From Candidatus Parcubacteria bacterium (GTDB taxonomy: Bacteria > Patescibacteriota > Minisyncoccia > UBA9983), in contig QZIU01000035.1 of the NCBI GenBank assembly GCA_003599625.1, positions 1-35,744 on the forward strand: a DNA stretch of 35,744 nucleotides, read 5' to 3'. A program made the position numbers and the translations under genes. The notes beneath the pieces were generated by a model. It saw only the letters and a list, made by a program, of their open reading frames with translations, was not told the origin of the DNA and ran no database searches. Positions 8,191-33,913 of this stretch are shown here, one piece after another; positions within the stretch are counted from its first letter, which is position 1; every line of letters begins with the position of its first letter.

Positions 8191-10773
8191 CTATCGCAAT
8201 ACTATATTTATTATTCTATTAGGCACGTAGATTATTTTTTCCACGCGCTTATCGCCTATCCATTTTCTAACATTTTCGCGTTTTAATGTCAATACTTTGA
8301 CTTCTTCTTCCGCCGTTCCAGCCTCGACTTCAAAAGAATCGCGCATCTTGCCGCCTATTTGAACGATGAGTTTAAATGTCCCGCCAGATAATTTCTTCGG
8401 ATCGAACTTTGGCCATTTTTCGCCGTGAATGGATGTTTTTTTACCCAGAATGGAGCGCCATATTTCCTCAGCCATATGGGGAGCAAAAGGGGTAAGAAGC
8501 GTAACCAGTAACGAGTAACTCGTAACGGGCAACTCGTTCTCTTTTTCCATCTCGTTGAGCAAGATCATCAAAGCGCTGACGGCAGTATTGAACTTTAACG
8601 ATTCCAAATCTTCCCCGACTTTCTTGATAGTCTTGTGCATTAAAACTTCTAGCTTAGAATTTTTTCCTTCAATTTTGATTTTTGTCCGCCGGTTGGCGGA
8701 TTGATTTTTGATTTTGAGCGACAGCGAATACACTCTCTCCAAAAACCTCTTCACCCCGTTTATCCCTTTTGGATCCCACGGGCCGTCCTGCAAATAATCG
8801 GTCATGAAAGCAAGATACATTCTCACCACATCCGCGCCGAAATTCCTTACAAGCTCGTCCGGGTCGATCACATTGCCCCTTGATTTGGACATTTTAAAGC
8901 CATCGGGACCGAATATAAGGCCGTGATTGCGTCGGACAATAAAAGGCTCTTTGAAATCGGCAAAACCAATATCGGCGATAAACTTGCTGAAGAACCTCGA
9001 ATAAAGGAGATGCATGGTGTTATGCTCCGCTCCTCCTATATACAAAGGAACAGGCAGCCATGATTTGATTTTCTTCGGATCGGCGAATTTTTTCTTATTC
9101 CTTGGATCGGTGTATCTGAAGTAATACCATGAAGAATCCACAAAGGTATCCATCGTATCCGTTTCTCTTTCCGCTTTACCCCCGCAGTTCGGACACTTAA
9201 CTTTTACCCATTTTGAGGCTTTCGCCAAAGGCGATCGTCCGTCCTCCGCAGGCCTGAAATCGTCCAATTTAGGCAATTTGATCGGCAAGTCACTCTCCGA
9301 GACCGGAATGATTTTGTATTCCACTCCCTCTTTAATAATATAATTCTTCCTTAATTTTTCGTTTTTCACTTTTAGTTTTTCACTTTCTCCGCATTTACGG
9401 CAGTAAATGACGGGTATTGGGACTCCCCAATATCTCTGGCGGGAAATAACCCAATCGCGCAGGCGATAAATTTTCTTTCTCTTTCCCAATCCTTTTTCCT
9501 CAAGCCATTTGGTTATCGCATCCCGAGCCTCCTGCGATTTCATCCCGTCAAATTTGTCCGAACCTACAAGATGCCCTTCGCCCGCGTAAGCTTTATCCAA
9601 AACGGGACAAATAGGTTTCGGATAATTCGGACATACTACTTGCCGTATCGGCAGACCATATTTTTTGGCAAACTCGTAGTCCCTTTCATCATGGGCTGGC
9701 ACGGCCATTACCGCGCCGGTACCATAAGAAGCCAACACATAATCGGCAACCCAAACTGGCAACTCTTCGCCATTAGCCGGATTTATTGCTTTTATGCCCT
9801 TCAATTCAACGCCGGTTTTTTCTTTGGAAGCCTCGCTTATTCTCTGAAGTTCGGTTTTGTGTCTCGTTCCTTCTACATATTTCTTAACTTCCTCATAATT
9901 CTTGATTCTTGATTGTTGATTCTGAATTATCGGATGCTCCGGCGCCACAACCAGATAAGTCACACCAAATATAGTATCTACTCGAGTTGTGAAGACCTCT
10001 ATGTGTCCGGTTGATTCTTTTTTTTGTTTATTTGAAATTGAAGAATTATTTGAAAATTGAAAATTGAAAATTGAAAATTTTATTGAAGTTCCTTCCGACC
10101 GCCCCACCCAATTCTTCTGCGCCAGCTTTGTATTCTCCGGCCAATCCAAGCCTTCCAGATCATCAATCAAACTGTCGGCGTAATCAGTAATTTTTATCAT
10201 CCACTGAGTAAGCTTTCTCTCCTCTATTCTTGTGCCGCACCTCTCGCAACAATTATCCACAACTTGTTCGTTGGCCAGAACGGTCTTGTCGTTCGGGCAC
10301 CAATTCACCAAAGCCTCTCCCCGATAGGCCAAACCCTTCTCATACATCTTCAGGAACAGCCATTGCGTCCATTTGTAATATTCGGGATCAATGGTGCTGA
10401 TCCTGCGGGACCAATCGAAAGAAGCTCCCATGCTCTCAAGCTGTTTTGTCATGAATTTGATATTCCCTTCCGTCCAAGATCGAGGATCTGTGTTTCTCTT
10501 TATGGCGGCGTTCTCGGCGGGCAAGCCGAAAGCGTCAAAGCCCATCGGATACATCACATTCTTGCCTTTCATTCGGTAATATCTTGCCAGGATGTCCGGC
10601 ACGGCGAAACTGAACCAATGCCCAATATGCAAATCCCCCGACGGATACGGGAACTCGGTGAGCAGCATAAAATTTTGCTTCCCCCTTGCCTTATCCTTCG
10701 TCTCATGCATTTTTTTCTTAGCCCATGCCTTCTGCCATTTGCGCTCTATTTTTTGAGGATTATACTTCTTCAT
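8191..10773 (-). CDS. leuS: Leucyl-tRNA synthetase
   Basis: 860 residues, class Ia synthetase that charges tRNA-Leu. The HIGH motif is at residues 49-52 (GDLHIGHW) and KMSKS near residue 628 (GFKMSKSRGN). The CP1 editing domain is present (EVFTTRVDTIFGVTYLV, then GTGAVMAVPAHDERDYEFA). Cysteine pairs that may bind zinc occur at CCERCG, CRKCGE and CPNCGG. The frame contains at least five low-complexity segments encoded by short repeats, at about residues 231-252, 282-292, 461-475, 686-702 and 746-758. They appear to lie in loops between conserved blocks and keep the frame open. The gene leads an operon with the HARE protein. No strong Shine-Dalgarno is visible. Confidence 0.96.
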   Translation of the reverse strand: MKKYNPQKIERKWQKAWAKKKMHETKDKARGKQNFMLLTEFPYPSGDLHIGHWFSFAVPDILARYYRMKGKNVMYPMGFDAFGLPAENAAIKRNTDPRSWTEGNIKFMTKQLESMGASFDWSRRISTIDPEYYKWTQWLFLKMYEKGLAYRGEALVNWCPNDKTVLANEQVVDNCCERCGTRIEERKLTQWMIKITDYADSLIDDLEGLDWPENTKLAQKNWVGRSEGTSIKFSIFNFQFSNNSSISNKQKKESTGHIEVFTTRVDTIFGVTYLVVAPEHPIIQNQQSRIKNYEEVKKYVEGTRHKTELQRISEASKEKTGVELKGIKAINPANGEELPVWVADYVLASYGTGAVMAVPAHDERDYEFAKKYGLPIRQVVCPNYPKPICPVLDKAYAGEGHLVGSDKFDGMKSQEARDAITKWLEEKGLGKRKKIYRLRDWVISRQRYWGVPIPVIYCRKCGESEKLKVKNEKLRKNYIIKEGVEYKIIPVSESDLPIKLPKLDDFRPAEDGRSPLAKASKWVKVKCPNCGGKAERETDTMDTFVDSSWYYFRYTDPRNKKKFADPKKIKSWLPVPLYIGGAEHNTMHLLYSRFFSKFIADIGFADFKEPFIVRRNHGLIFGPDGFKMSKSRGNVIDPDELVRNFGADVVRMYLAFMTDYLQDGPWDPKGINGVKRFLERVYSLSLKIKNQSANRRTKIKIEGKNSKLEVLMHKTIKKVGEDLESLKFNTAVSALMILLNEMEKENELPVTSYSLLVTLLTPFAPHMAEEIWRSILGKKTSIHGEKWPKFDPKKLSGGTFKLIVQIGGKMRDSFEVEAGTAEEEVKVLTLKRENVRKWIGDKRVEKIIYVPNRIINIVLR
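8501..8538. repeat. GTAACG-type short repeat inside leuS
   Basis: Interrupted copies of a GTAAC(G/C)-(A/G)G-type hexa-octamer, encoding PVTSYSLLVT just before the conserved LLTPFAPHMAEE of LeuS. The same word family occurs in the intergenic repeat at 22455-22555 and inside miaA at 33523-33559. Confidence 0.7.
8673..8718. repeat. TTTTGATT repeats flanking a TCCGCC hairpin inside leuS
   Basis: A 6-bp palindromic hairpin (TCCGCC at 8685-8690, GGCGGA at 8695-8700, loop GGTT) is flanked on both sides by copies of TTGATTTT. The segment is translated as part of LeuS (the KNQSANRRTKIKIE stretch). Confidence 0.75.
9354..9387. repeat. TTTTTCACTTT repeat inside leuS
   Basis: Two to three imperfect copies of TTTTTCACTTT(T) encode the KLKVKNEKLRKN segment of LeuS, directly after the CRKCGE zinc-like motif. 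Confidence 0.65.
9898..9930. repeat. TTGATTC repeat inside leuS
   Basis: Tandem copies of ATTCTTG/ATTGTTG encode IQNQQSRIKN in the LeuS editing domain, just after the conserved VAPEHP. Confidence 0.65.
10049..10083. repeat. TTGAAAA heptamer array inside leuS
   Basis: Four perfect tandem copies of the heptamer TTGAAAA encode the SIFNFQFSN stretch of LeuS, between GTSIKF and the conserved IEVFTTRVDT block of the editing domain. Confidence 0.8.
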
Positions 10774-10795
10774 AATTAAATTGGATAATACAACA

Positions 10796-10824
10796 AAAAT
10801 CCCGATTTTTCAACCGGGAATTTT
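10796..10824 (-). terminator. Rho-independent terminator downstream of the DUF5671-like gene
   Basis: On the minus strand AAAATTCCCG pairs with CGGGATTTT (one bulged base) around a 10-nt loop, and a T-run follows. It ends the 10850-11806 transcript before leuS begins. Confidence 0.75.
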
Positions 10825-10849
10825 GCGACATAATCTCGTTCTTTTATTT

Positions 10850-11806
10850 TTATTGAATTCTTTCCTTATCCTTTATTGCGGGATATAACTCCGGATCTAT
10901 TTCACGATCGAAACATTGCCTGCCGGATTCATGCTGCCAATCATCATTGATCCTTCTGTCGAAGATCGGTGCTTTAGCGTATGAGTCATTTTGCCCGTTT
11001 CTGCTTTCCAAACTGAACATGGCGCACAATCTGAATTTCAAGTCGCCTGTTTTTTCGTATTCATAAGAAGAACCGGTCTCAGGATCGTTCGGAATGATTC
11101 CAAAACCTGATAGTGGATCTTTCAATTCATCAAGATTATTCGGCAAACTGCCCTTTCGCTGATAAAAATTTATAACCTGATACTGAATATTCTGCAGATC
11201 GGAAACTCTTCTCTCGTCAAATCTCTGCTTTCTTTGCGTCGATGGAGAACCCATTAAAAGGAAACCTCCGACAAGGGCGGCCAAAACAACAACGGAAGAA
11301 ATAATCATGAATATTTTTCCTGCCGCCGACCTGACCGCCACATCTCTTCTTAACTCGTAAACATAATATCCGAAAATCGCTCCGGCCACGACAAGAATAG
11401 AAAGCACTTTAAGCAAAAATCTGATTGTTATTTCCCCGCCCAGAAAAGTATTTATAAGAAAAACCAGATCGGTGATGATCGTAACTCCGGCCACGAAAAG
11501 AGTTACGAAAGTAAGCCACTTCCTTATCCAAATCCCCCTCTTTTCCGGATGCTCTCTCAAGTCCTTGTTTAAGAAATAAGACACGACAAGATGAAGAGGA
11601 AAAACAATCACCAGGGAAGCTATCGAAAGCCTCATGGAAGAAAAATTATCGAAGCTGTAGCTTAAAGGATCGGGGAAAAGATTGTCTGTCATCTTAAAAA
11701 ACAAATTGATCAGACTTATCCCGCTAATGTACAAAGTCGCCATCGCCGCGAGATAAAGAAAAAAATCCTTCGGCGAAGTCCTGACCCTGGTTTCAATATT
11801 ATTCAT
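10850..11806 (-). CDS. DUF5671-like multi-span membrane protein with pilin-like tail
   Basis: 318 residues. About five transmembrane segments fill residues 15-190, including FFLYLAAMATLYISGISLI, LVIVFPLHLVVSYFL and IFMIISSVVVLAALVGGFLLMG. The first part resembles the DUF5671 membrane domain. A soluble C-terminal part follows (RRVSDLQNIQYQVINFYQRKGSLPNNLDEL), whose pattern recalls the post-helix region of type IV pilin/pseudopilin-like proteins. No enzymatic motif was found. It is monocistronic, with its own terminator. The DUF assignment is from memory of the family pattern. Confidence 0.65.
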   Translation of the reverse strand: MNNIETRVRTSPKDFFLYLAAMATLYISGISLINLFFKMTDNLFPDPLSYSFDNFSSMRLSIASLVIVFPLHLVVSYFLNKDLREHPEKRGIWIRKWLTFVTLFVAGVTIITDLVFLINTFLGGEITIRFLLKVLSILVVAGAIFGYYVYELRRDVAVRSAAGKIFMIISSVVVLAALVGGFLLMGSPSTQRKQRFDERRVSDLQNIQYQVINFYQRKGSLPNNLDELKDPLSGFGIIPNDPETGSSYEYEKTGDLKFRLCAMFSLESRNGQNDSYAKAPIFDRRINDDWQHESGRQCFDREIDPELYPAIKDKERIQ

Positions 11807-11864
11807 TTTTTTATATTAGCTATTAATGTCTCAATAATACAACAATGGAACCCCGTTTTTAGTC

Positions 11865-11952
11865 TTGACAGAACTCTAAAGGCATGTATTATAATGGCAG
11901 GAACTTAAAAATTGAAATAGAAATTTCTTAAAAATTTTTGCCGAAAAGGAGG
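11865..11952 (+). promoter_or_regulatory. Consensus promoter and Shine-Dalgarno for the 11960 gene
   Basis: A perfect TTGACA (11865-11870) is followed after 16 nt by TATTAT (11887-11892), overlapping TATAAT (11890-11895, 19-nt spacing). A ~60-nt leader follows, then AAGGAGG (11946-11952), 7 nt before the ATG at 11960. Unlike most genes here, this one has a full leader with an excellent ribosome binding site, so strong expression is expected. Confidence 0.85.
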
Positions 11953-11959
11953 GTTGTAT

Positions 11960-12406
11960 ATGTCAAAGGAACATCCAGAAAAACTGCAATCAAATAATGT
12001 AGGAAGAGAAGAGTTTCAAGAGATTTTATTGAATAAAATAAAAAACATTGGTCAGACTGGAGATTCTGGAAATGTAAAAGAATTTTTATTACCACAGCAT
12101 CCAATTGCGCAGGCATTGGGTATCATGGCTTACAGTGGGCATGATTTTTCAATTGATTTTGATTTTAAAAAGAAAGATATTAGTTACAAAGGACTGATTG
12201 ATTTACTAAACTCCACGTTAAGAGGAACCCAGGTAGATCTCAGAGAAGATACAGGGTGGATAAGTGGATGTTATGATATTGTAGATAAGACAGACAACAA
12301 AAGATTAGGAGCTGTTGTTATTACGTTAGACCCGGAAGAGAAAAATGTCCATATTTCTTTTTGGTACGGAATAGTTGCACAAAAATCATTTGAGAAAAAC
12401 TGCTAA
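11960..12406 (+). CDS. Hypothetical protein, stand-alone plus-strand gene
   Basis: 148 residues from ATG 11960. An in-frame TTG at 11954 overlaps the Shine-Dalgarno region and is too close to it. I do not recognise the family. The sequence is soluble-looking, with no signal peptide or membrane segment. The first 60 residues are probably helical and charged. The rest alternates strand-like segments (HDFSIDFDFKKKDISYKGL, GAVVITLDPEEKNVHISFWYG) with tryptophans in the GWISGCYD and SFWYG motifs, consistent with a small alpha/beta fold. It is AT-rich and lies between convergent and divergent minus-strand housekeeping genes as a complete unit with promoter, Shine-Dalgarno and strong terminator. That suggests a regulated or recently acquired gene. 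No function can be assigned. Confidence 0.75.
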   Translation: MSKEHPEKLQSNNVGREEFQEILLNKIKNIGQTGDSGNVKEFLLPQHPIAQALGIMAYSGHDFSIDFDFKKKDISYKGLIDLLNSTLRGTQVDLREDTGWISGCYDIVDKTDNKRLGAVVITLDPEEKNVHISFWYGIVAQKSFEKNC

Positions 12407-12431
12407 GGGGTATGTAAACAGAAAAATTGTG

Positions 12432-12470
12432 AACTCCTTGGACTTAAGTATTAAGTCCAAGGAGTTTTTT
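12432..12470 (+). terminator. Strong Rho-independent terminator of the 11960 gene
   Basis: A perfect 16-bp stem (AACTCCTTGGACTTAA with its complement, arms 12432-12447 and 12451-12466) with a 3-nt loop is followed by TTTT and further Ts. It is 25 nt after the stop codon. Confidence 0.92.
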
Positions 12471-12557
12471 ATTTCAGTTGGGCGTGTAAGCAAGTTTGTG
12501 TGTAAATGGCAATGGATAATAATTTCCGCGGCGCTAGTTTAGCAAGACCTTGCTTTT

Positions 12558-13598
12558 TTATATCCGAAACTCTATCACATCCCCGTCTTTCACCACATAT
12601 TCCTTCCCTTCCGTGCGGACGAGGCCTTTTTCTCTGGCTTTGGCGTAAGAGCCGGCGCTAATCAGATCCTGCCAGTTGATCACTTCGGCCCTGATGAATT
12701 TTTCCCTGAAGTCGGTATGGATAGCCGCCCCGGCTTCCGGCGCGGTGGAATTTTGCCTGATGGTCCAGGCCCGCGTCTCATCTTCGCCGGTAGTAAAATA
12801 ATTCATCAATCCGAGAAGTCTGTACGACTCCACGATAAGTTGATCAATATTGCTCTTAAGAACAAGTTCTTTTTTATCTTCATCGCTCATTTCCATCAAG
12901 TCCTCCTCCGTTTTAATATCCAGAACAACATGATTCTTCTTCTTCAATTCTTCCGGCAAATCCATATTTTTATCAGAAATATTATAGATATACAAAATCG
13001 GTTTCAGTGTGAGAAGATGCAGGTCCCTCATTAAGTCCATGTCGCTTTTGTCCAAACTTTCTTTTGCCAATTTGCCTTGCTCGAGCGCCGCTTTCACCTT
13101 CTTGACCGCTTCCAATTTCTTGATGATTTCTTTGTCGCCCGATTTTACTTCTTTTTCCAAAGTCCCGATTCTTTTATTGACCGTTTCCAGATCCGCCAAG
13201 ATCAGTTCCGTTTCAATCACCCCGATGTCTCCCACAGGGTCAACTTTGTTATGCACGTGAATGATCTTGTCATTGTCAAAAACGCGAACTACCTGTCCGA
13301 TCGCGTCCACTTCCCTGATGTTGGCCAGAAATTTATTACCCAGCCCTTCCCCTTCAGAAGCGCCCTTCACCAGACCGGCAATGTCCACAAACTCCACCGC
13401 CGCCGGCACTACCTTTTTTGACTTGGAAAATTCCGCCAGCTTACCCAGCCGCTCGTCCGGCACTTCCACCACGCCCACGCTCGGGTCAATGGTGCAGAAA
13501 GGATAATTGGCGATATCCACCTGCTTTTTAGTAAGCGCCTTAAAGAGCGTGGACTTCCCCACATTCGGCAGACCGACGATACCGATAGACAAACTCAT
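12558..13598 (-). CDS. ychF: YchF/OLA1-family P-loop NTPase
   Basis: 346 residues. The N-terminal G domain has P-loop GLPNVGKST (residues 8-16) and the YchF hallmark [29 protein letters not shown] coiled-coil insertion (roughly residues 130-190) and a C-terminal TGS domain (ending [17 protein letters not shown]) complete the layout. YchF proteins bind ribosomes and hydrolyse ATP rather than GTP because their fourth G-motif is altered; here the corresponding segment reads [10 protein letters not shown]. The length is slightly below the usual ~363. An extended -10 (TGC-TAGAGT) lies 7 nt before the ATG, suggesting a leaderless mRNA. A small AGCAAG/CTTGCT hairpin lies right beyond the stop. Confidence 0.95.
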
Positions 13599-13605
13599 GC
13601 GCTAA

Positions 13606-13611
13606 ACTCTA
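13606..13611 (-). promoter_or_regulatory. Extended -10 box, probable leaderless start for ychF
   Basis: On the minus strand TGC precedes TAGAGT at 13606-13611, with 7 nt to the ATG at 13598. The -35 is poor. Support comes mainly from the same geometry at other genes here. Confidence 0.4.
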
Positions 13612-13698
13612 GCATTTTTTGAGAAAAAATAAAGGTATTCGGCAATGGTTGCGATCCACAGTATCCAACAGTATTTACATTTTTCCCTGATCTGTTAC

Positions 13699-13735
13699 AA
13701 ACCGCTTAGTAGTTCTAAGGAACGAACGGCGGTTT
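13699..13735 (+). other. Orphan hairpin with T-tract in the ychF upstream gap
   Basis: AAACCGC (13699-13705) pairs with GCGGTTT (13729-13735), enclosing a smaller GTTC/GAAC hairpin, and is followed on the plus strand by TATTTTTT. It looks like a plus-strand terminator although no plus-strand gene ends here. The rest of the 13599-13856 gap holds only this hairpin, the terminator at 13753-13800 and the ychF promoter. Confidence 0.4.
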
Positions 13736-13752
13736 TATTTTTTCCGGTATCC

Positions 13753-13800
13753 AAAAATAATAAGCCGTTAGTAAGAGATATGCGCTCTTGCTAACGGCTT
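13753..13800 (-). terminator. Rho-independent terminator of the exported Ig-like protein gene
   Basis: AAGCCGTTAG (arms 13791-13800 and 13762-13771) forms a stem extended by a CAAGAG/CTCTTA pairing with one wobble. It is followed on the minus strand by ATTATTTTTG. It lies about 57 nt beyond the stop at 13857. Confidence 0.85.
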
Positions 13801-13856
13801 TCAATCGTTGTTTGGGGAAAGAAAAAGTCCCCCTTCATCTTAAGCAAACTCAATCT

Positions 13857-22454: not shown

Positions 22455-22555
22455 ACCCATAACCAGTAATGGGTAACGTGTAATAAAGCGAGATCAAATC
22501 TCAATCTCTATCCAAATTACCGGTTACTCGTTACGCGTTTACTCATTACCGTTAT
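22455..22555. repeat. GTAACG/GTTACG short-repeat inverted pair
   Basis: The left arm (22455-22485) has AACC/GTAATGGGTAACGTGTAAT words. The right arm (22516-22555) has the complementary GTTACTCGTTACGCG words. The right arm runs into the histidine kinase gene and supplies its last codons (NGNE and stop at 22539). Confidence 0.75.
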
Positions 22556-24813: not shown

Positions 24814-25947
24814 ATGATAATCAAGGACAAATACGGCCCGGAATACATGTTGGAAGTTTACGACCCCGAAACAGATATGGAAGGATACCTTGTCATAGAC
24901 AACACCGCTTTCGGACCCGGGAAAGGGGGCATCAGGATGACCCCTGCCGTATCTCTCGAAGAAGTTTACCGATTGGCCAGAACGATGACTTGGAAAAACG
25001 CTTTGGCCGGAATCCCTTTCGGCGGAGCCAAAGCGGGAATCAAGTGGCCCCGCTTGCAGGCGGGCAAGCCAAGCAATGAGCAAAATGTTAAAAAGCAATT
25101 TATTCAAAGTTTTGCCCGAGCCGTCAAACCTTTTTTAATAAAAAAATATATCGCCGGACCCGATGTAAACACGGGAGAAAAAGAAATGAACTGGTTCGTC
25201 GAAGCTGCCGAGGATCCGCGCGCGGCGACGGGAAAACCGTTCGACTTTTGCCACTCCTCCGGCAAAAAATGCGGGCTGCCGCACGAGCTTGGCAGCACCG
25301 GTTTTGGCGTCGCGCAAGCCGCCGCCATCGCCATTGAACTTTCCGGCCTGGACATCAAAAAGACGAGCGTCGCGATAGAAGGATTCGGCAATGTGGGAGA
25401 ATTTACTTTCCGGCACTTGGCAGAAATGGGAGCCAAAATCGCGGCCATAACGGATATTCACGGCGGCGTTTACGATAAAAACGGTTTGGATCCGGAAAAA
25501 CTCATGAACCTGAAGAAAAAGAGGAGATCCCCCGTCGAATATGACGGCGGAGTCAAAATTAAAACCGGCGAATTATTCTCTCTCCCAGTCGACACGCTGA
25601 TACCCGCCGCGGTTACAGATTCCATAAACGAAGCTAACAAAGGAAAGATAACAGCCAAGATAATAGTCGAGGGAGCCAACATACCGATGCGGGAAAAAAT
25701 AGAAAAGGAATTCTTTAAAAGAGGGGTTCTCGTCGTCCCTGACTTTGTGGCTAATGCCGGAGGAGTCATTTCTTCTTACGCCGAACATCGCGGGTACGAC
25801 GCCAAAAAAATGTTCGAACTTGTGGATGCCAAGATAAAAAGCTCCGCGACGGCCGTGATCAAACAAAGCTTGGAACAAAAAAGATGGCCTCGCGAAGTGG
25901 CCATGGAAATAGCGGTAAAGAGAGTGGAAGAGAAGATGGGAAAATAA
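24814..25947 (+). CDS. Glu/Leu/Phe/Val-family dehydrogenase
   Basis: 377 residues from ATG 24814. An in-frame TTG at 24805 lies inside the -10 box and is rejected. The catalytic-domain GPGKGGIRM, then IPFGGAKAGI with the expected active-site lysine, and GPDVNTGEKEMNW are followed by a C-terminal Rossmann domain with VAIEGFGNVGEFTFRHLAEMGAKIAAITD. The family deaminates amino acids oxidatively to 2-oxo acids with NAD(P). Which amino acid is not clear; the layout is closest to glutamate dehydrogenases. Residues ~75-90 (KWPRLQAGKPSNEQ) come from a palindromic CCCGC/GCGGG segment and differ from the usual sequence. The gene is convergent with ddl. Confidence 0.92.
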   Translation: MIIKDKYGPEYMLEVYDPETDMEGYLVIDNTAFGPGKGGIRMTPAVSLEEVYRLARTMTWKNALAGIPFGGAKAGIKWPRLQAGKPSNEQNVKKQFIQSFARAVKPFLIKKYIAGPDVNTGEKEMNWFVEAAEDPRAATGKPFDFCHSSGKKCGLPHELGSTGFGVAQAAAIAIELSGLDIKKTSVAIEGFGNVGEFTFRHLAEMGAKIAAITDIHGGVYDKNGLDPEKLMNLKKKRRSPVEYDGGVKIKTGELFSLPVDTLIPAAVTDSINEANKGKITAKIIVEGANIPMREKIEKEFFKRGVLVVPDFVANAGGVISSYAEHRGYDAKKMFELVDAKIKSSATAVIKQSLEQKRWPREVAMEIAVKRVEEKMGK

Positions 25948-25949
25948 TT

Positions 25950-25975
25950 TTCAATTTACAATTTACAATTTTTAT
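25950..25975. repeat. CAATTTA short repeat between gdh-like gene and ddl
   Basis: Tandem TCAATTTACAATTTACAATTT fills most of the 32-nt gap between two convergent genes. No conventional terminator is present there. Confidence 0.6.
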
Positions 25976-26992: not shown

Positions 26993-27105
26993 ACAACTCA
27001 AATATCAGAACTCAAAAGTCAAAACTACAACTCAAAACGCAAAGCTGGCAATTAGTTTTTTGTTTTTAGTTGTGGTTTTGAGCTCTGAGTTTTGAGTTTT
27101 AAGTT
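26993..27105. repeat. AACTCAAAA / TTTTGAGTT inverted short-repeat element
   Basis: The left arm (26993-27040) is made of AACTCAAAA-like words and the right arm (27055-27105) of their complements (GTTTTGAGCTCTGAG, GAGTTTTGAGTTTTAAG). The imperfect arms could form one long hairpin. It fills the gap between the hydrolase stop (27108) and the ddl promoter. The same AACTCAAAAGTC word is found inside miaA. Confidence 0.75.
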
Positions 27106-27107
27106 TT

Positions 27108-27773: not shown

Positions 27774-27788
27774 ATTATTTTAAACCCT

Positions 27789-28043: not shown

Positions 28044-28045
28044 AA

Positions 28046-28116: not shown

Positions 28117-28167
28117 TTCAATAAAGACAGTATATACAAAAATAACGGATTTTCAATCTTGCGGATA

Positions 28168-28239: not shown

Positions 28240-28286
28240 CGATTTTCCATTTTTCACCTTAGCACAGAATGAGATTTTTTCCAAAA

Positions 28287-28320
28287 TAAAAATACGACGC
28301 GTAAACGAGTCGTATTTTTA
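28287..28320 (-). terminator. Rho-independent terminator of the glutaredoxin gene
   Basis: A perfect 12-bp stem (TAAAAATACGAC with its complement, 28287-28298 and 28309-28320), 10-nt loop, and a T-rich tail on the minus strand, just after the stop at 28328. Confidence 0.85.
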
Positions 28321-28327
28321 CCGGTTT

Positions 28328-28561
28328 TTATATTCCCAGCATTTGGGAAAGTTTTTCCTCATCGAATCCGATCATGACTTCCCCGTCCACTTCTATCACC
28401 GGCACGGCCATCTGTCCGGTTTTCTTTATCACCTCGTCTCTCATTTGCGCGTCCTTGGTGAGATCGTAGTCAGTGAAAGGAATATTTTTATCCGTTAAAA
28501 AATCCTTTGCCATCCTGCAATAAATGCAAGTCGGCGTCGAATAAATGATTACTTTTTTCAT
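28328..28561 (-). CDS. Glutaredoxin-like protein (NrdH/Grx type)
   Basis: 77 residues, thioredoxin fold. The redox motif is CIYC at residues 12-15, after VIIYSTPT. The cis-proline lies in AVPVIEVDGEVMIGFDEEKL. Such small proteins reduce disulfides and often feed electrons to ribonucleotide reductase. CIYC differs from the CPYC of classical glutaredoxin and CVQC-type NrdH, so its electron donor is uncertain. It is complete, followed by its own terminator, and starts 31 nt after the murC stop. Confidence 0.92.
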   Translation of the reverse strand: MKKVIIYSTPTCIYCRMAKDFLTDKNIPFTDYDLTKDAQMRDEVIKKTGQMAVPVIEVDGEVMIGFDEEKLSQMLGI

Positions 28562-28592
28562 ATAATGATGATACTACGTATAATTTTAAATT

Positions 28593-29930
28593 TCAAATTT
28601 TAAATTTTTTTAATAATTCTTCCCCCACTTTATATATATCTCCCGCTCCTATTGTCATCACGACATCGCCTTCTCTCGCGTTCTCCCTTAAATAATCTTC
28701 GATTTCGGAAAAATTTTTAAAAGAAAAAACCGTTTTACCGTTCTTGGCGATCTCGTCTCTTAAAATATCCGAACTGATCGATGGATCAGGCTTCTCCCTC
28801 GCGGCATAGATCGGGGCGAGAACCACCATGTCCGCATTCTTAAAATTCTTGGAAAACTGACCAAGAAAATGTTTGGTCCGACTATAAAGATGGGGTTGGA
28901 ACACGGCGATGATCCTTTTGCCCGGAAAATATTCCCTGGCTCCCGCCAACACCGCTTCGACTTTCTGCGGGTTATGAGCGTAATCATCATACACCAGCGC
29001 GCCTGTATTTGTGATTCCTTTATACTCAAATCTTCTCCATGGCCCTTCAAAATCCTCTAAAGCCTTCCGAGCCGCTGGATCATCAACGCCCACCGCCGCG
29101 GCCGCGCCCAGGGCCGCCTTGGCATTCATTCTGTTGTGATCTCCGGGAAGTTTAAGCTTAGGAACGGCGATTCGGGCATAATCGATAATTTCGCATTTCA
29201 CGGTCTCTAAAATTGGCGTGATATTCGGATTTGATTTATCGGTTATCAAAAAACCATCTTCCGGAATCTTGCTTGCCAATTCCGCGAAAGCATTTTGGAT
29301 GTCGCTTAAATCCTTATAGAAATCAAGATGATCTTCATCGATGTTGGTGACGACCAAAATTTTAGGATTCAGGCTATGAAAATTTTTCTTGTACTCATCG
29401 GCTTCCACCACCAGGTATTTGCTTTTGCCGTGGATGAAATTGCTTCCTCGCCTCGCCGCAGCTCCGAGCGCAGGCGGATCATTATCTTTCAAAAGACTGC
29501 CTACGATGACAGTCGGATCTTTTTCGGCATTAATCAAGATTTTGGCTAACATTGCCGTCGTTGTGGTTTTGCCGTGAGTGCCGGAGACGGCAATAGTGTA
29601 TTTTTCTTTAGAGATCAAGCCCAGCGCTTCGGAATAAGAAAAGGTTGAAACATTTCTTCTTCTGGCTTCGACAAGCTCCGGATTGTCCTCGGCGAGAGCG
29701 GCAGTGTGGATCACCGCGTCGCAACCGTCCGGAATATTTTTCGCGTCATGGCCAATGGAAATTTTCACCCCCAGCTTTCCCAACTCATCCGTCACCAAAG
29801 AAGAGGCCTGATCCGATCCGCTAACCCTCTTCCCTTCCTCCAGCATCATTCTTGCTATGGCCGACACGCCAATGCCGCCGATCCCTATAAAATGCGCTTT
29901 TTTAATTTTGGATAAATCAATATATCTCAT
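28593..29930 (-). CDS. murC: UDP-N-acetylmuramate--L-alanine ligase
   Basis: 445 residues, Mur ligase family. N-terminal HFIGIGGIGVSAIARMMLEEGKRVSGSD binds the UDP-sugar. The ATP P-loop is VSGTHGKTTTTAML near residues 113-126. VVEADEYKKNFHSLNPKILVVTNIDEDHLDFYKD and GDHNRMNAKAALGAA follow, and the C-terminal domain has YDDYAHNPQKVEAVL and AVFQPHLYSRTKHF. It adds L-alanine to UDP-MurNAc, the first step of the peptide stem. The length is normal (~450). The last codons (KKFKI) and the region beyond the stop are formed by an AATTTTAAA-type short repeat. Confidence 0.96.
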   Translation of the reverse strand: MRYIDLSKIKKAHFIGIGGIGVSAIARMMLEEGKRVSGSDQASSLVTDELGKLGVKISIGHDAKNIPDGCDAVIHTAALAEDNPELVEARRRNVSTFSYSEALGLISKEKYTIAVSGTHGKTTTTAMLAKILINAEKDPTVIVGSLLKDNDPPALGAAARRGSNFIHGKSKYLVVEADEYKKNFHSLNPKILVVTNIDEDHLDFYKDLSDIQNAFAELASKIPEDGFLITDKSNPNITPILETVKCEIIDYARIAVPKLKLPGDHNRMNAKAALGAAAAVGVDDPAARKALEDFEGPWRRFEYKGITNTGALVYDDYAHNPQKVEAVLAGAREYFPGKRIIAVFQPHLYSRTKHFLGQFSKNFKNADMVVLAPIYAAREKPDPSISSDILRDEIAKNGKTVFSFKNFSEIEDYLRENAREGDVVMTIGAGDIYKVGEELLKKFKI

Positions 29931-29980
29931 CTCTGCTTTGCCTGCTTACTTTACTATGACCCAACAGAACATTCAACACA

Positions 29981-30670
29981 TTAAAAAAATTTAGCCCTCT
30001 TTTTTCTCCACTCTTCTATCTTCTTATGATCCCCCGATTTGAGGATCTTCGGGATGGAATACTTTTTGCCTTTAAATTCGAATATGTCCGGCTTGGTGTA
30101 AAGCGGGTAGCCGGAGACGTACCGCTCTTCTTCCAGCGATTCTTCTTTGCCAAGCACTCCCGGAATTTGCCTGGAAACTGAGTCTGCCACGACGGCAGCC
30201 GGAAGCTCGCCGCCGGTTAAAATATACGGCCCGATAGAAACTTCTTCCACGCTTACCCCAAGAGCGGGTATTATCTTTTTTATCCTCGCGTCAATCCCCT
30301 CATATCTTCCGCAAATCATTATGATATTGTCGTATTTTTTCGCCCAATCCCGCGCCAATTTTTTATTAAATTGTTTTCCGCCTGGAGAAAAAATGATGAT
30401 TTTTGTTTTCCTAAGTTTTGAGCTTTGAATTTTGAGCTTAGAACTTAAAATTGAACCGATTGTATTGACAATCGGTTCAATTTTAAGAACCATCCCCGGC
30501 CCGCCGCCAAACGGCTTGTCATCCACCTTCTTATGCTTATCTTCCGCAAAGTCTCTTAAATTATGCAAATTTACTTCCACGAGCCCGCCCTTCCGAGCCC
30601 GACCCAAAATGGAAGAATTGAAATATTCTCTTAAAACTTCGGGAAAAATTGTTATGACATCGAATCTCAT
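29981..30670 (-). CDS. trmD: tRNA (guanine-N1-)-methyltransferase
   Basis: 229 residues, SPOUT (trefoil-knot) methyltransferase that makes m1G37 with S-adenosylmethionine. Family marks are FDVITIFPEVLREYFNSSILGRA, DDKPFGGGPGMVLKIEPI, ICGRYEGIDARI, and the knot SIGPYILTGGELPAAVVADSVSRQIPGVLG. Residues ~69-88 (NTIGSILSSKLKIQSSKLRK), placed between EPIV and the conserved TKIIIFSPGGKQFNK, are encoded by a 20-bp foldback and a short repeat. They appear longer than usual for the family. The gene follows khpA. The usual neighbours rimM and rplS are absent. Confidence 0.95.
   Translation of the reverse strand: MRFDVITIFPEVLREYFNSSILGRARKGGLVEVNLHNLRDFAEDKHKKVDDKPFGGGPGMVLKIEPIVNTIGSILSSKLKIQSSKLRKTKIIIFSPGGKQFNKKLARDWAKKYDNIIMICGRYEGIDARIKKIIPALGVSVEEVSIGPYILTGGELPAAVVADSVSRQIPGVLGKEESLEEERYVSGYPLYTKPDIFEFKGKKYSIPKILKSGDHKKIEEWRKKRAKFF
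30412..30487. repeat. 20-bp perfect foldback plus AAGCTCAAAA repeats inside trmD
   Basis: Positions 30444-30463 and 30468-30487 are exact reverse complements (20 bp, 4-nt loop ATTG). The arm beginning CTTAAAATTGAACC includes the codons of the conserved LKIEPIV. Next to it, 30412-30443 holds imperfect GAGCTTTGAATTTTGAGCTT repeats. All of it is translated within TrmD. Confidence 0.85.
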
Positions 30671-30695
30671 TTTAAATGTTTACACTATTGGCAAA

Positions 30696-30733
30696 AGAAA
30701 ACCCCTTCCGCCAGGCGGCGGATGGGGTTTTCT
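30696..30733 (-). terminator. khpA terminator with TCCGCC/GGCGGA stem
   Basis: AGAAAACCCCTTCCGCC (30696-30712) pairs with 30717-30733 with one mismatch around AGGC. A T-rich run follows on the minus strand (GGGGTTTTCTTTT). The inner stem is the same TCCGCC/GGCGGA palindrome found elsewhere in the window. Confidence 0.75.
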
Positions 30734-30746
30734 AACTAAAATCAAA

Positions 30747-31049
30747 CTATATTTTCAAATCGTCCATAGCCTGATCAACGCTCTTCACCGGTCTGGTGCT
30801 ACCTTCCGGCTCTTCAATCTTAAGATTGACTCGAGCATTGTTCTTCATGCCAACAACTCTCAAAAGAGTTCTGATGGCCTTGGCCGTGTTGCCGCTTCGT
30901 CCGATAATCTTTCCCATATCGGCGGGATCAGTTTTGAGAGTTATAAGAACTCCCATTTCGTCGACCTTTCGGTCAACTTTCACCGCTGAAGGGTTATCAA
31001 CGAGCGCTTTGACGACGTACTCAAGAAATTCCTTATCTCTTTCAGCCAT
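30747..31049 (-). CDS. khpA: KH-domain RNA-binding protein KhpA
   Basis: 100 residues with one type II KH domain. The GKIIGRSGNTAKAIRTLL segment (about residues 55-72) carries the GxxG loop that clamps single-stranded RNA. KhpA works with KhpB in Gram-positive bacteria and affects cell-wall growth; here only KhpA is in view. It is typically encoded between rpsP and rimM/trmD, and that order holds here except for rimM. The C-terminus is extended by ~20 residues (EEPEGSTRPVKSVDQAMDDLKI) over the ~76-residue usual length. It has its own consensus promoter. Confidence 0.93.
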   Translation of the reverse strand: MAERDKEFLEYVVKALVDNPSAVKVDRKVDEMGVLITLKTDPADMGKIIGRSGNTAKAIRTLLRVVGMKNNARVNLKIEEPEGSTRPVKSVDQAMDDLKI

Positions 31050-31113
31050 TTTATTGTGCTCTATCGCTTATTTTTTATAATCCGCAGTTCGACCGCGTCT
31101 GCATCGTGGTTCT

Positions 31114-31141
31114 ATTATATACGAAAAAAGCCCTTTGTCAA
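31114..31141 (-). promoter_or_regulatory. Consensus khpA promoter overlapping the rpsP terminator
   Basis: On the minus strand a perfect TTGACA (31136-31141) and a perfect TATAAT (31114-31119) are 16 nt apart. The -35 lies inside the terminator hairpin of rpsP, and the terminator's T-run lies in the spacer. Confidence 0.85.
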
Positions 31142-31161
31142 TACCTATTGACAAAGTGGCT
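31124..31161 (-). terminator. Rho-independent terminator of rpsP
   Basis: On the minus strand an 11-bp stem (CTTTGTCAATA with its complement), extended by GCC/GGC across a one-base bulge, is followed by TTTTTT (31129-31124). It lies 12 nt beyond the rpsP stop. Confidence 0.85.
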
Positions 31162-31172
31162 ATACTACAGGA

Positions 31173-31550
31173 TTATTTTGCCGCTTCGGCTGGTTCCGCG
31201 ACCGGTTTTTCTTCCGCTTTTGGTTCGGCAGCAACGCTTTGAGCAACTTCCGCTCCGGTTTTAGTCGGTTCTTCCTTCTTGGGCTGAGACGGCAAAACAT
31301 TAATCTTAGGCCCTTTTATAACTTTTTCCCTTACCAAAAGATTGTGGACGGTGTCCGAAACTTGGGCTCCTTTGGTTATCCAGTCTTTTATTTTGTCGCC
31401 GGAGAGCTTTATCTGATCCTTCTGGGCGTTATAAAAGCCAAGCACTTCTATGGCTTTTCCGCTTGAAGCGGCCCTTCGGGAATCGGTCAAAACAACCCTG
31501 AAGGACGGGTCATGCTTCTTGCCTACCCTGTGAAGTCTTATCTTTAACAT
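31173..31550 (-). CDS. rpsP: 30S ribosomal protein S16
   Basis: 125 residues from ATG 31550. The open frame runs further upstream to 31676, but that part is not S16-like and lies beyond the promoter, and the true start MLKIRLHRVGKKHDPSFRVVLTDSRRA is typical. The S16 domain fills the first ~82 residues. A ~43-residue tail rich in Ala, Glu, Lys and Pro (KKEEPTKTGAEVAQ, EPKAEEKPVAEPAEAAK) follows, which is longer than in most bacteria. S16 binds 16S rRNA during small-subunit assembly. An extended -10 (TGC-TAGTAT) 7 nt before the ATG indicates a leaderless transcript. It is divergent from miaB. Confidence 0.95.
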   Translation of the reverse strand: MLKIRLHRVGKKHDPSFRVVLTDSRRAASSGKAIEVLGFYNAQKDQIKLSGDKIKDWITKGAQVSDTVHNLLVREKVIKGPKINVLPSQPKKEEPTKTGAEVAQSVAAEPKAEEKPVAEPAEAAK

Positions 31551-31557
31551 AATGAGA

Positions 31558-31586
31558 ATACTAGCAGATAAAAATAAAGTTGGCAA
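31558..31586 (-). promoter_or_regulatory. rpsP promoter, leaderless
   Basis: On the minus strand TTGCCA (31581-31586), a 17-nt spacer and TGC-TAGTAT (-10 at 31558-31563), then 7 nt to the ATG at 31550. Confidence 0.7.
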
Positions 31587-31603
31587 TAAGAGCGAACCGT
31601 ACG

Positions 31604-31632
31604 TTGAAAAAACCGCCGAAAAATAATAGACT
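31604..31632 (+). promoter_or_regulatory. miaB promoter, possibly leaderless
   Basis: TTGAAA (31604-31609), a 17-nt spacer and TAGACT (31627-31632) are followed 8 nt later by ATG 31641. It is divergent from the rpsP promoter; the two -35 boxes are 17 nt apart. Confidence 0.5.
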
Positions 31633-31640
31633 CTTTTATT

Positions 31641-32936
31641 ATGGATAAATATTTGATTACCACCTTCGGATGCCAAGCCAACATGGCCGATTCCGAGAAA
31701 ACGTCTTGGGTAATGGAAAATGCCGGCTATAAAAAGGCCGTGGATGAAAAGGATTTACTCTCCGCGAAGAATCCTATATTGATCTTCAACACCTGCTCCG
31801 TCCGTCAAAAAGCGGAGGATAGGATCTTCGGCCTGAATAAAAAAACCGAGTTATTCAAAATTCAAAATTCCAAATTGAAAATTATCTTGACGGGTTGCAT
31901 GATGCACTACAAAGAAGAAGAGCTGAAGGAACGGCTTCCGTTTTTCGATCATTTCGTGGATATTAAGAATATCGATACGCTTCCAAAATTCATTGGTCAC
32001 AGAAATGAGCTTAAAAAAACAAATGTGACCACTGGATTGCGATCGCAATCCAGTGGTAAGATTTTGGGTCGCGGAGAAAGTCTGATCAAACGGAAGACTT
32101 CCAAAGTTTCGGCTCTTATTCCCATCTCGCATGGCTGCGATAATTTTTGCACTTATTGTATTGTGCCGCTGGCCAGAGGAAGAGAAATTTCAAGGCCGGT
32201 TGAACAAATTTTGAGCGACGTCAAAAAAGCGGCAGATGGCGGGGCGAAAGAAATTTGGCTTTTGGGGCAGACGGTGAATAGCTATAAAAAAACGGTCAAT
32301 TTCGCCGACTTGTTAAGACTTGTAAATGCAATTCCGGGCGACTTTTGGATTCGCTTTACTTCCCCGCACCCGAAAGATTTTTCGGACGATTTGATTAAAG
32401 CGATGTCGGAATGCGAAAAATTCGCTCATTACATAAACCTTCCCGTCCAATCCGGCAACAACACGGTTTTAAAAAGAATGGGCAGACCTTATACGGTGGC
32501 GCGCTACAAAAAGCTTGTCAAAAAAATTCGCCAAGCCATGCCCGACATCGCCATCTCAACGGATGTGATAGTCGGCTTCCCCGGCGAAACAAGAAAACAA
32601 TTCGAAGATACGAAAAAATTATTTGAGGAAATAAAATTCGATATGGCTTTTCTTTCCGAATACTCTCCCCGCCCCAAAACCGCCGCCGCCAAAGCCTTCA
32701 AAGACGATGTGCCTCACAAAGAAAAAGAAAAGCGCAAAGATGAGATCAATGAGGTATTAAAAAAGACCTCTTTAGAAAACAACAAAAAACTTATCGGCAA
32801 AACGGTAAAAGTTTTAAACGGGCGCACGGAAGGCAATAAGCCAATTGGAATCGAAGGCAACCAGCCCAAAAATAAATTCGCCTTAGCAAAAATTACAAAA
32901 GCAAACACATGGAGTTTAAAAGGAAAATTATTGTGA
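31641..32936 (+). CDS. miaB: tRNA-2-methylthio-N6-dimethylallyladenosine synthase
   Basis: 431 residues, radical-SAM methylthiotransferase. The N-terminal domain has TFGCQANMADSEK, then FNTCSVRQKAEDR and TGCMM, whose cysteines bind the auxiliary cluster. The radical-SAM cluster motif is CDNFCTYC near residue 165, followed by GGAKEIWLLGQTVNSY and the typical INLPVQSGNNTVLKRMGRPYT and STDVIVGFPGETRKQF. A short C-terminal TRAM-like part follows. It adds a methylthio group at C2 of i6A37. Two repeat-derived segments lie in frame: residues ~71-82 (LFKIQNSKLKI) and ~130-139 (the 30-bp palindrome). Its 3' end overlaps miaA by 28 nt, which fits their consecutive reactions at A37. Confidence 0.96.
   Translation: MDKYLITTFGCQANMADSEKTSWVMENAGYKKAVDEKDLLSAKNPILIFNTCSVRQKAEDRIFGLNKKTELFKIQNSKLKIILTGCMMHYKEEELKERLPFFDHFVDIKNIDTLPKFIGHRNELKKTNVTTGLRSQSSGKILGRGESLIKRKTSKVSALIPISHGCDNFCTYCIVPLARGREISRPVEQILSDVKKAADGGAKEIWLLGQTVNSYKKTVNFADLLRLVNAIPGDFWIRFTSPHPKDFSDDLIKAMSECEKFAHYINLPVQSGNNTVLKRMGRPYTVARYKKLVKKIRQAMPDIAISTDVIVGFPGETRKQFEDTKKLFEEIKFDMAFLSEYSPRPKTAAAKAFKDDVPHKEKEKRKDEINEVLKKTSLENNKKLIGKTVKVLNGRTEGNKPIGIEGNQPKNKFALAKITKANTWSLKGKLL
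31851..31886. repeat. TTCAAAA heptamer repeats inside miaB
   Basis: ATTCAAAATTCAAAATTCC-type tandem copies followed by a complementary-looking TTGAAAATT encode LFKIQNSKLKII just before the conserved LTGCMM. The same heptamer in the opposite sense occurs in leuS at 10049-10083. Confidence 0.7.
32028..32057. repeat. 30-bp perfect palindrome with GCGATCGC core inside miaB
   Basis: The sequence from ACCACTGGATT to AATCCAGTGGT is identical to its own reverse complement over 30 bp. The centre is GCGATCGC (32039-32046), the octamer known in cyanobacteria as HIP1. It encodes TTGLRSQSSG and lies in the linker before the radical-SAM domain. Because it is a palindrome, the opposite strand encodes the same peptide in one frame. 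Confidence 0.9.
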
Positions 32937-33913
32937 TTCTCGGCCCGACGGCGAGCGGGAAAAGCGAGTTGGGGGTAAAGTTAGCCAAAAAAATCGGGGG
33001 TGAAATTATTTCGGCCGATTCTCGGCAGGTGTATAAAGGGCTAAACATAGGAAGTGGTAAAGTTGATGGCCGGTGGATTATTGAGAGTTTAAATAAAAAA
33101 CAATTCAGAAAACTCAAAAGTCAAAAGTCAAAAGTCAAAAGTACAACTCAAAATTCAAAAGTTTTTAAATACAAGGGCGTATCACACTATTGCATTGATT
33201 ATGTTAGCTCGAAAAAAATCTATACCGTGGTTGACTTTAAAAAATGCGCCGAAGAAGCGAAAGAGAAAATTTTCGCCGGAAATAAAATTCCGATTATCGT
33301 CGGCGGAACAGGATTATATATTCAGGCGATCGTGGACAATATTGTCCTGCCAGAGGTAAAGCCGGACTGGAAACTAAGAAAGGAATTGGAGAAAAAAACG
33401 GCAACGGAAATGTTTGAAATGCTTAAAAAACTTGATCCGGAAAGAGCCAAAACCATTGATCCGAAAAATCCCCGACGTCTGATCAGAGCGATAGAAATAG
33501 CAAAATCCTTAGGTTCCGTGCCAATTACGCGTTACGGATTACCTGTTACGGGTTACGATTTTCTTCAAATCGGAATTAAATTACCGGATGAAATTCTTAA
33601 AAAGAATATCGAAAAAAGAATCAAAAAAATGCTGAATCCGCCGGCAGGCGGAGGGCTGGTCGCCGAAACGAAAAAATTAAAAAAATCCGGTTTGACATGG
33701 AAGCGAATTTACGAGTTTGGCTTTGAATACAAATATCCGGCCATGTTTTTGCAAAAGAAAATAAGCAAAGAAGAGATGCTTTCGAAAATGATTGCTGAAA
33801 ACTGGCAATACGCCAAACGGCAAATGACTTGGTTTAAGAGAGATAATAGGATCGAATGGATTGAAGACACAAAAGAAGCGGAAAAAATGGCGAAAGATTT
33901 CCTGAAAAAATAA
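32909..33913 (+). CDS. miaA: tRNA dimethylallyltransferase
   Basis: 334 residues. P-loop GPTASGKS is at residues 12-19, followed by SADSRQVYKGLNIGSGK (35-51), the conserved GVSHYCID near 90, GGTGLYIQAIVDN, NPRRLIRAIEIA and AKRQMTWFKRD near the end. It transfers a dimethylallyl group to N6 of A37 in tRNAs reading UNN codons; MiaB then methylthiolates it. Three repeat-derived segments lie in frame at about residues 66-87 (KLKSQKSKVKS), 205-218 (ITRYGLPVTGYD) and 243-249 (NPPAGGG). The start at 32909 overlaps miaB by 28 nt and gives the usual N-terminus. Confidence 0.96.
   Translation: MEFKRKIIVILGPTASGKSELGVKLAKKIGGEIISADSRQVYKGLNIGSGKVDGRWIIESLNKKQFRKLKSQKSKVKSTTQNSKVFKYKGVSHYCIDYVSSKKIYTVVDFKKCAEEAKEKIFAGNKIPIIVGGTGLYIQAIVDNIVLPEVKPDWKLRKELEKKTATEMFEMLKKLDPERAKTIDPKNPRRLIRAIEIAKSLGSVPITRYGLPVTGYDFLQIGIKLPDEILKKNIEKRIKKMLNPPAGGGLVAETKKLKKSGLTWKRIYEFGFEYKYPAMFLQKKISKEEMLSKMIAENWQYAKRQMTWFKRDNRIEWIEDTKEAEKMAKDFLKK
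33111..33166. repeat. AAAAGTC heptamer array inside miaA
   Basis: Four tandem copies of CAAAAGT followed by ACAACTCAAAATTCAAAAG encode the lysine/serine-rich KLKSQKSKVKS stretch between KVDG and KYKGVSHYCID. In typical MiaA proteins only a short loop separates these blocks. Confidence 0.85.
33523..33559. repeat. ATTACG/GTTACGG repeat inside miaA
   Basis: Imperfect copies of GTTACGGATTACCT encode ITRYGLPVTGYD after GSVP. They are of the same word family as 8501-8538 (leuS) and 22455-22555 (intergenic). Confidence 0.65.
33637..33652. repeat. TCCGCC-GGCA-GGCGGA hairpin inside miaA
   Basis: A perfect 6-bp palindromic stem with loop GGCA, translated as NPPAGGG. It is the same stem as at 8685-8700, 27801-27814 and 30707-30722. 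Confidence 0.7.

Follow-up and report, generated by a model that had tools for sequence, protein, structure and literature searches.

Dispersed hairpins with heptanucleotide arms between genes, in reading frames and in 23S rRNA of a Candidatus Parcubacteria genome

Introduction

The 35,744-nucleotide contig QZIU01000035.1 of a Candidatus Parcubacteria bacterium, analysed over its whole length and referred to here as the window, carries arrays of tandem heptanucleotides both between its genes and within the reading frames of leuS, miaA, miaB and trmD. In the genome to which the window belongs, the unit behind these arrays is a dispersed hairpin of ~65-135 bp, whose arms are heptamer arrays and which occurs in several families. 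These small heptamer-armed hairpins are very probably selfish or nearly neutral elements. A preliminary description, made from the window alone, had noticed repeats in the four genes and in several gaps, and they are indeed present at the positions it gave.

The genome of the window (G000) is a 906-kb bin of 35 contigs, 95.6% complete and 4.5% contaminated. In a tree of leucyl-tRNA synthetases (LeuS), the window's protein clusters with Patescibacteria records, one Giovannonibacteria record among them. The closest genome compared (G001) is a sister species of the same genus, and across 121 reciprocal best hits the proteins of the two have a median identity of 63%.

Results

A seven-nucleotide period

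Of all lags from 3 to 30 in the window, 7 and 14 alone have runs reaching 11 matches (five at each). The period was surveyed at lags 2-40 in 375 kb of G000 (19 stretches, L009-L027; segments of score at least 12), which hold 47 lag-7 and 26 lag-14 segments. The other lags give 0-10, the highest being lag 21 with 10, and lag 9 is somewhat raised with nine. Dinucleotide shuffles of the same survey yielded one segment in total, which bears out the expectation that the words exceed what base composition provides. The control set comprises 27 loci (442 kb), mostly from Bacillota, Chloroflexota and Actinomycetota and including Dictyoglomota and Coprothermobacterota records. It contains no lag-7 run of at least 12 and one of 10-11, and period 7 is therefore a trait of certain lineages and not of DNA generally. 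Chance or base composition as the cause is ruled out by the lag survey, the shuffles and the control loci together.

Array placement, word stock and family copies were counted in a larger sample of 425 kb, which includes contig C26 (L028), fetched for a pattern match and excluded from the period survey. The 96 arrays of score at least 11 were sorted by whether they fall in or between genes: 56 are intergenic, 25 lie within open reading frames (ORFs) and 15 at ORF edges. Most arrays are thus intergenic, although the ORFs, as called by a simple caller, cover 89% of the bases.

Hairpin architecture and families

The intergenic arrays are frequently paired as two complementary arms. The window contains the following hairpins and arrays outside its conserved proteins:

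7071..7141, intergenic: family D hairpin with arms (CTAGTCC)n and (GGACTAG)n, word CTAGTCCCTAGTCC; profile match at 7071-7140, E 4.1e-16; fold z -7.65
22455..22555, intergenic, overlapping the end of an ORF at 22539: hairpin with arms (GTTACNN)n and (NNGTAAC)n; fold z -4.12
25946..25971, between convergent genes: single-arm (AATTTAC/AATTTTC)n array
26996..27103, intergenic: complete copy of the family B hairpin, E 4.7e-23; fold z -4.91
28582..28608, at the 3' edge of the ORF at 28593-29930: (AATTTTA)n array

Families were collected with iterated profiles seeded with single copies (E <=1e-4), which may themselves contain the LepA and MiaA copies described below. The 425-kb sample holds 9 copies of family A, 17 of B, 12-13 of D and 18-20 of F, a few places matching both B and F. 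At the same threshold no copy of the four families was found in block-shuffled DNA, in Acidobacteria or in the Bacillota-type control loci. The sister species has three B copies and none of A, D or F, and the other relatives have one of A and two of B. Seeds for the words AATCAAG and AATTTTA matched only themselves in the 425 kb. Full-length copies of A, B and F mostly measure 95-135 bp and those of D 63-87 bp.

The preliminary description took a word of 7-10 bp as the mobile unit. This does not fit family B, ten copies of which align over ~105 bp with terminal inverted repeats and a conserved core near CTACAACT ... AGTTGTGG that lies outside the tandem part. The number of tandem units varies inside the arms. 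All eight hairpins tested by folding are more stable than their own shuffles, with z from -2.5 to -8.0. GC-rich palindromes are nested near some hairpin tips (e.g. L016:9451-9577, L013:8237-8366 and L024:16374-16473), as if inserted into hairpin loops; they were seen in 5/8 tested copies of F, 1/10 of B, 0/6 of A and 0/6 of D.

Gains at gene junctions and in 23S rRNA

The spacer that holds the complete family B copy of the window measures 165 bp, against 47 bp in the sister species, between homologous protein ends (162 and 35 bp by ORF ends). Among 55 neighbouring gene pairs conserved between the two species, an array is present in G000 only at nine junctions, in the sister species only at one, in both at two and in neither at 43. 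Gaps between ORF ends are sensitive to the choice of start codon and had given 10, 1, 1 and 43; spacers were consequently remeasured between homologous protein ends, and the clean gains persisted. With genes named by eye from their proteins, the spacers in G000 and in the sister species are 41 vs 7 bp at rplW/rplB, 103 vs 7 bp at rpsN/rpsH, 101 vs 11 bp at rpsH/rplF, 112 vs 7 bp at rplO/secY and 122 vs 4 bp at mraZ/rsmH.

The elements also enter ribosomal RNA. The bacterial large-subunit rRNA of G000 (L014:5903-9140, Rfam) contains family F twice, family B once and another hairpin of longer period. Four variable hairpins of this 23S rRNA measure 146-211 nt in G000 and 25-65 nt in five relatives, and the sister species has different inserts at three of the four sites. 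A second 23S hairpin type, with a period of 9-10 nt and TTCATAAAG-like words, is seen at L014 ~7470-7615 and in L207 of the sister species. A group I intron (RF00028) lies at L014:9073-9406, in the 3' part of the G000 23S rRNA gene.

Words in different lineages

The distribution of words is very uneven. A three-unit GTTACNN pattern has 155 matches in 11 of 145 Patescibacteria genomes, and the reversed pattern has 16 in seven genomes of the same set, itself partly clustered. The word CTAGTCCCTAGTCC matches 23 times in G000 and in none of 36 relatives, and its abundance is a lineage burst. Acidobacteria loci, which were fetched via LeuS, are rich in arrays. Their sharing of words with G000 is at chance level (one exact word against 0.8 expected), which leaves word families universal across phyla unsupported; within the genus, sharing is well above chance (six against 0.8). 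Among 11 distinct words of G000 coding sequences, eight recur in its non-coding or edge arrays: the coding words are drawn from the genome's own stock.

Runs in the coding DNA of G000 also differ by length. There are 20 lag-7 runs of at least 10 matches, where other lags average 1.0, but only eight of 8-9 matches, against 5.6. An excess confined to the longer of these runs favours arrival as blocks. That period 7 grew gradually in place through repeated misalignment is disfavoured, the excess of short runs that it predicts being missing at 8-9.

Array sites in LeuS

The leuS gene of the window has five array sites:

8191..10773, - strand: leuS host gene; AlphaFold model with mean predicted local distance difference test (pLDDT) 82.7
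8501..8537, - strand: (GTTACNN)n array, LeuS aa 746-758, overlapping predicted helix 749-759; usual class length, not an insertion
8685..8717, - strand: GC palindrome TCCGCCGGTTGGCGGA with (TTGATTT)n, LeuS aa ~686-697, in a variable loop; pLDDT <50 at 694-703
9355..9386, - strand: period-14 array, LeuS aa 463-473, within an in-frame length gain
9898..9923, - strand: (TTGATTC)n array, LeuS aa 285-292; usual length, not an insertion
10028..10079, - strand: (TTGAAAA)n array, LeuS aa 232-249; segment of 32 residues vs the standard 16, loop 238-251 with pLDDT <50

The sites were compared in 81 LeuS sequences. Parsing succeeded for 77 of these at site 232 and for 58 at site 282, and the tree holds the 73 longer than 700 residues, with L169 and L057 omitted. 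At site 232, the distance from W(I/V)G(K/R)SxG to (F/Y)TTR is exactly 16 residues in 43 of the 77. Arrays are found there in 12 sequences, two at 16 residues and ten at 25-49, and their words differ among Patescibacteria, Saganbacteria and Acidobacteria (a group that, as compared here, included L157, a Coriobacteriia record with no array). The extra lengths, +9 to +33 residues, are a multiple of seven residues in none of the ten, which speaks against simple 21-nt slippage. Supported branches force eight state changes at this site, and six fall on the tree at site 282. In the acidobacterial LeuS of L158 both hairpin arms are in frame. Two of the loop-type sites of the window's LeuS lie at or beside the low-confidence model stretches 238-251 and 694-703.

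The arrays had been described as inserted in frame. This holds for MiaA and for LeuS aa 232-258, where relatives show presence and absence. It fails at LeuS 9898-9923 and 8501-8537 and at MiaB 31853-31883, where relatives have the same length with ordinary codons. Both LeuS segments can be aligned gap-free with those of most relatives in the class. At the place and spacing of the 285-292 site, arrays of other words are carried by five genomes from other genera, and in all six array bearers the spacing across 282-293 is that of most array-free relatives. At the 746-758 site, three of four array bearers have a segment of 31 residues and the fourth one of 37; 31 is also the commonest length among array-free LeuS (18/75).

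Larger inserts occupy the same 232-258 loop elsewhere. In the Falkowbacteria LeuS of L169 (9462-12332) it holds a long in-frame insert that resembles a Y1-type transposase by eye, and another ORF of that locus, of 680 aa, is rich in GTAACGA/GAAGTAA arrays. In the LeuS of L057 (G023) it holds an in-frame domain that resembles a HAD-type phosphatase by eye.

Array sites in MiaB, MiaA, TrmD and other hosts

The remaining coding segments of the window are:

30416..30443, - strand: period-14 array in a variable loop of TrmD (SSKLKIQSSK)
31853..31883, + strand: (ATTCAAA)n array in MiaB (AATTCAA word); unchanged length, not an insertion
32021..32064, + strand: 44-bp palindrome in frame in MiaB (TNVTTGLRSQSSGKIL), a dispersed family; fold z -6.72
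33109..33166, + strand: one family B arm in MiaA, inside an in-frame insertion; profile match at 33113-33166, E 7.4e-7
33525..33557, + strand: (GTTACNN)n array in a variable MiaA loop (ITRYGLPVTGY); the sister species has no array and a segment two residues shorter
33640..33660, + strand: short GC-rich stretch in MiaA (NPPAGGG), no heptamer array; four-residue gain over the sister species

At the first MiaB site 12 genomes were compared (in 13 rows, one genome supplying two), and in 11 of them the anchors are 19 residues apart, array or not: the window, G005 with another word (AAACTGT), and nine array-free genomes. The second MiaB segment, taken earlier for a word array, is actually a palindrome, with intergenic copies at L017:9878-9923, L017:10523-10569 and L021:11439-11482 and a partial one at L018:2262-2291. 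Its centre GCGATCGC is the same octamer as the cyanobacterial HIP1 repeat, which is probably a coincidence. The third MiaA segment had likewise been read as a repeat, and only the GC-rich gain listed above is found there. The TrmD loop has 27 residues in the window; of 11 relatives, three could be parsed here, and their loops measure 34, 24 and 22 residues.

The tRNA-related character of the hosts holds for LeuS, MiaA, MiaB and TrmD, but does not extend to DnaG, LepA, PilD, SecA and 23S rRNA, which also carry arrays. LepA contains a 130-bp family F copy in frame (E 7.1e-17), PilD a part of family A, and MnmA and TsaD F-type arms. The arrays of L4, PvlArgDC and a ClpC-like ORF stand at the N-terminal ORF edge and may precede the true start. 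Pfam naming of the hosts covered ORFs longer than 150 residues with an array score of at least 12, plus TsaD. By this count, tRNA-related proteins make up 4/9 of the array-bearing ORFs in G000 outside the window and 6/9 in the sister species, which is no more than suggestive of an over-representation of tRNA enzymes. In the other relatives, stretches were picked around synthetase or MiaB matches, so the coding counts there are biased upward.

Six proteins with arrays in both G000 and the sister species (LepA, AlaS, TsaD, MnmA, Fmt and MiaA, selected for that reason) are 72-81% identical between the two. They have seven common array sites, of which five hold different words, one related words (MiaA) and one the same words (the C-terminal site of MnmA), and four further sites with an array in one species only. 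The same slots are re-used, and words turn over between relatives.

Discussion

Origin and spread of the elements

The explanation that we favour joins the hairpin elements, a copying route and selection for frame, and as a whole it is probable; the copying route itself, template switching onto resident hairpins, is put forward tentatively. A replicating strand would stall or break, often at a hairpin, and switch onto a resident heptamer hairpin. There it would copy one arm or the whole hairpin and then return. Return with no net offset would leave an in-place patch, and return with an offset an insertion, while slippage in 7-nt steps would keep the arms homogeneous. Within genes, the survivors would be the stop-free, frame-keeping products in tolerant loops or compatible helices. 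Such a filter would account for the few re-used slots and for the turnover of their words.

Several observations weigh against this explanation. Copying was not observed as an event separating near-identical genomes, the nearest one compared being the sister species at 63% median identity, and the template-switch route is one that we infer. Arrays of unchanged length could also arise by insertion and deletion, or by drift under amino-acid constraint. Coding lag-7 runs of 6-7 are mildly raised in G000 (131 against 77, the highest other lag reaching 118), and Acidobacteria coding DNA has raised runs of 8-9 (12 against 3.9). At 11 of the 43 array-free junctions the spacers of the two species also differ by more than 60 bp, so that junctions change in length with or without arrays. 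In 23S rRNA the two F copies have common flanks, and part of that signal is therefore due to gene conversion or duplication. The fold of the LepA copy is only moderately stable (z -2.5, equalled by 2/200 shuffles). Finally, the defined ends and conserved core of family B are what a transposase would also produce.

The main rival takes the elements to be like miniature inverted-repeat transposable elements (MITEs) or repetitive extragenic palindromic (REP) sequences, moved in trans by a transposase (HUH/Y1, REP-associated tyrosine transposase (RAYT)-like or other) that recognises hairpin ends, and it appears unlikely. The terminal inverted repeats, the whole-length family copies and the burst of CTAGTCCCTAGTCC agree with it, as does the by-eye resemblance of the L169 LeuS insert at site 232 to a whole Y1-type transposase. 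G000 has a single Y1 transposase domain and the sister species has four, two of whose loci have arrays within ~1.5 kb (at one a score-11 array nearby, at the other a pair of arrays in a neighbouring ORF). On the other hand, the 3.1-kb locus of the sole G000 Y1 gene has no array of score at least 10, Y1_Tnp being the only transposase family sought. Flanking direct repeats average 5.0 bp for A, 4.5 for B, 4.2 for D and 4.0 for F, compared with ~4.4 bp in a control that is similar though not identical; the longest per copy are 3-6 bp in 30 copies, with no near-identical empty site for comparison. The ends bear no conserved tag, GTAG lying within 12 bp in 4/30 copies and CGTC in 1/30. One enzyme would, moreover, have to accept several unrelated words, and the length-preserving arrays would be left unexplained.

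Ordinary heptanucleotide slippage from chance two-copy seeds, with frame selection in genes, is improbable. One survey reports heptanucleotides as the most frequent repeat class in the majority of its genomes, and slippage linked to polymerase contact length has been proposed (PMC4679880, PMC4692102, as cited there). The varying unit number in the arms and the raised short coding runs of Acidobacteria would also suit slippage. It is weakened by the alignment of families beyond their tandem part and by the hairpin arms, by the lack of excess in G000 coding runs of 8-9, by LeuS inserts that are not multiples of seven residues and by control bacteria that are nearly free of the signal.

There is similarly little probability that the hairpins are RNA elements under selection for a function in mRNAs and at gene ends, be it as terminators, as processing signals or in protein binding. 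The hairpins are stable and enriched between genes, and several orthologous gaps hold hairpins in both species with differing sequences. However, in 31 tandem gaps they show no bias towards the upstream stop relative to the downstream start (Wilcoxon p 0.58), they are found within ribosomal operons in which the sister species has its genes almost abutting, 43 of 55 junctions are array-free in both, and the Rfam matches in the window are three tRNAs only. Transcription terminators in particular were rejected for the absent position bias and the gains inside ribosomal operons.

It is highly improbable that the heptamers are a by-product of selection on proteins, acting in tRNA-binding enzymes for loops that are K/N/S-rich or alternately hydrophobic: the share of tRNA-related hosts and the recurrence of similar residues at LeuS 232 speak for it, but amino-acid constraint alone imposes no 7-nt period, non-coding DNA has these words too and the families enter rRNA.

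A broader reading is speculative and rather doubtful. The hairpins would be selfish but indifferent to sequence: their architecture of 7-nt periodic complementary arms would be inherited and the word would not, and a copying process of the host would spread them. Slots in operon junctions, rRNA hairpins and conserved proteins would be refilled repeatedly with different words across Patescibacteria, Saganbacteria and Acidobacteriota, and also in Cyanobacteria if similar repeats described in the literature are included.

The observations show that heptanucleotide repeats can form the arms of dispersed hairpins, which in this genome, reduced to ~0.9 Mb, enter ribosomal operons, reading frames and rRNA. 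The refilling of the same slots with new words in a sister species makes the question of dispersal testable. The elements also account for odd K/N/S-rich or VTSYSL-like protein stretches in such bacteria, which can mislead alignments, trees and annotation.

Comparison with known systems

The Rickettsia palindromic elements are described as ~150 bp long, in ten families and nearly half within ORFs (PMC10969869). The likeness to them that the preliminary description saw largely holds as a likeness of architecture: families B and F and the MiaB palindrome occur both intergenically and in frame, and G000 copies lie in unrelated conserved genes (F in LepA, a B arm in MiaA, part of A in PilD and the palindrome in MiaB). 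Unlike those elements, the present ones have heptamer-array arms, words that differ by family and species, single-arm insertions and some arrays of unchanged length.

Cyanobacterial heptanucleotide repeats have long been known, to our knowledge with no agreed mechanism of dispersal, and the short tandemly repeated repetitive (STRR) sequences of this group occur within the RNase P RNA gene. In the P6b region of the Nostoc tRNA-Leu intron, stems are reported to be built on 7-nt motifs, with class I having replaced class II at a fixed site in several lineages and with indels of 7 and 14 nt (PMC4476775). The STRR and P6b repeats share with the present elements hairpin stems made from tandem 7-nt units. 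They differ in that here several families coexist per genome and enter protein frames and 23S rRNA, and coding arrays are found in Acidobacteriota as well.

The TAACTGA repeats of Beggiatoaceae, Cyanobacteria and Bacteroidetes are described as direct heptamers, mostly intergenic and partly in ORFs, patchy across phyla; the account is of one word, mostly just upstream of start codons, with one inverted set in that genome (PMC4679880). G-rich heptamers are reported from Xanthomonas and Nostoc (PMC4692102). The present heptamers are likewise mostly intergenic with some in ORFs, but comprise many words, form hairpins and lie inside conserved proteins. With MITEs and REP/RAYT systems they share short inverted-repeat elements in many copies, whereas no clear target duplication, tag or linked transposase was detected (only Y1_Tnp being sought). 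Searches of openly licensed PMC papers listed none that deals with heptamer hairpins or with palindromes in frame for Patescibacteria or Acidobacteria. Each of the kindred systems is known; what appears new is the combination, namely hairpins with heptamer arms that occupy operon junctions, rRNA and coding frames and whose words turn over.

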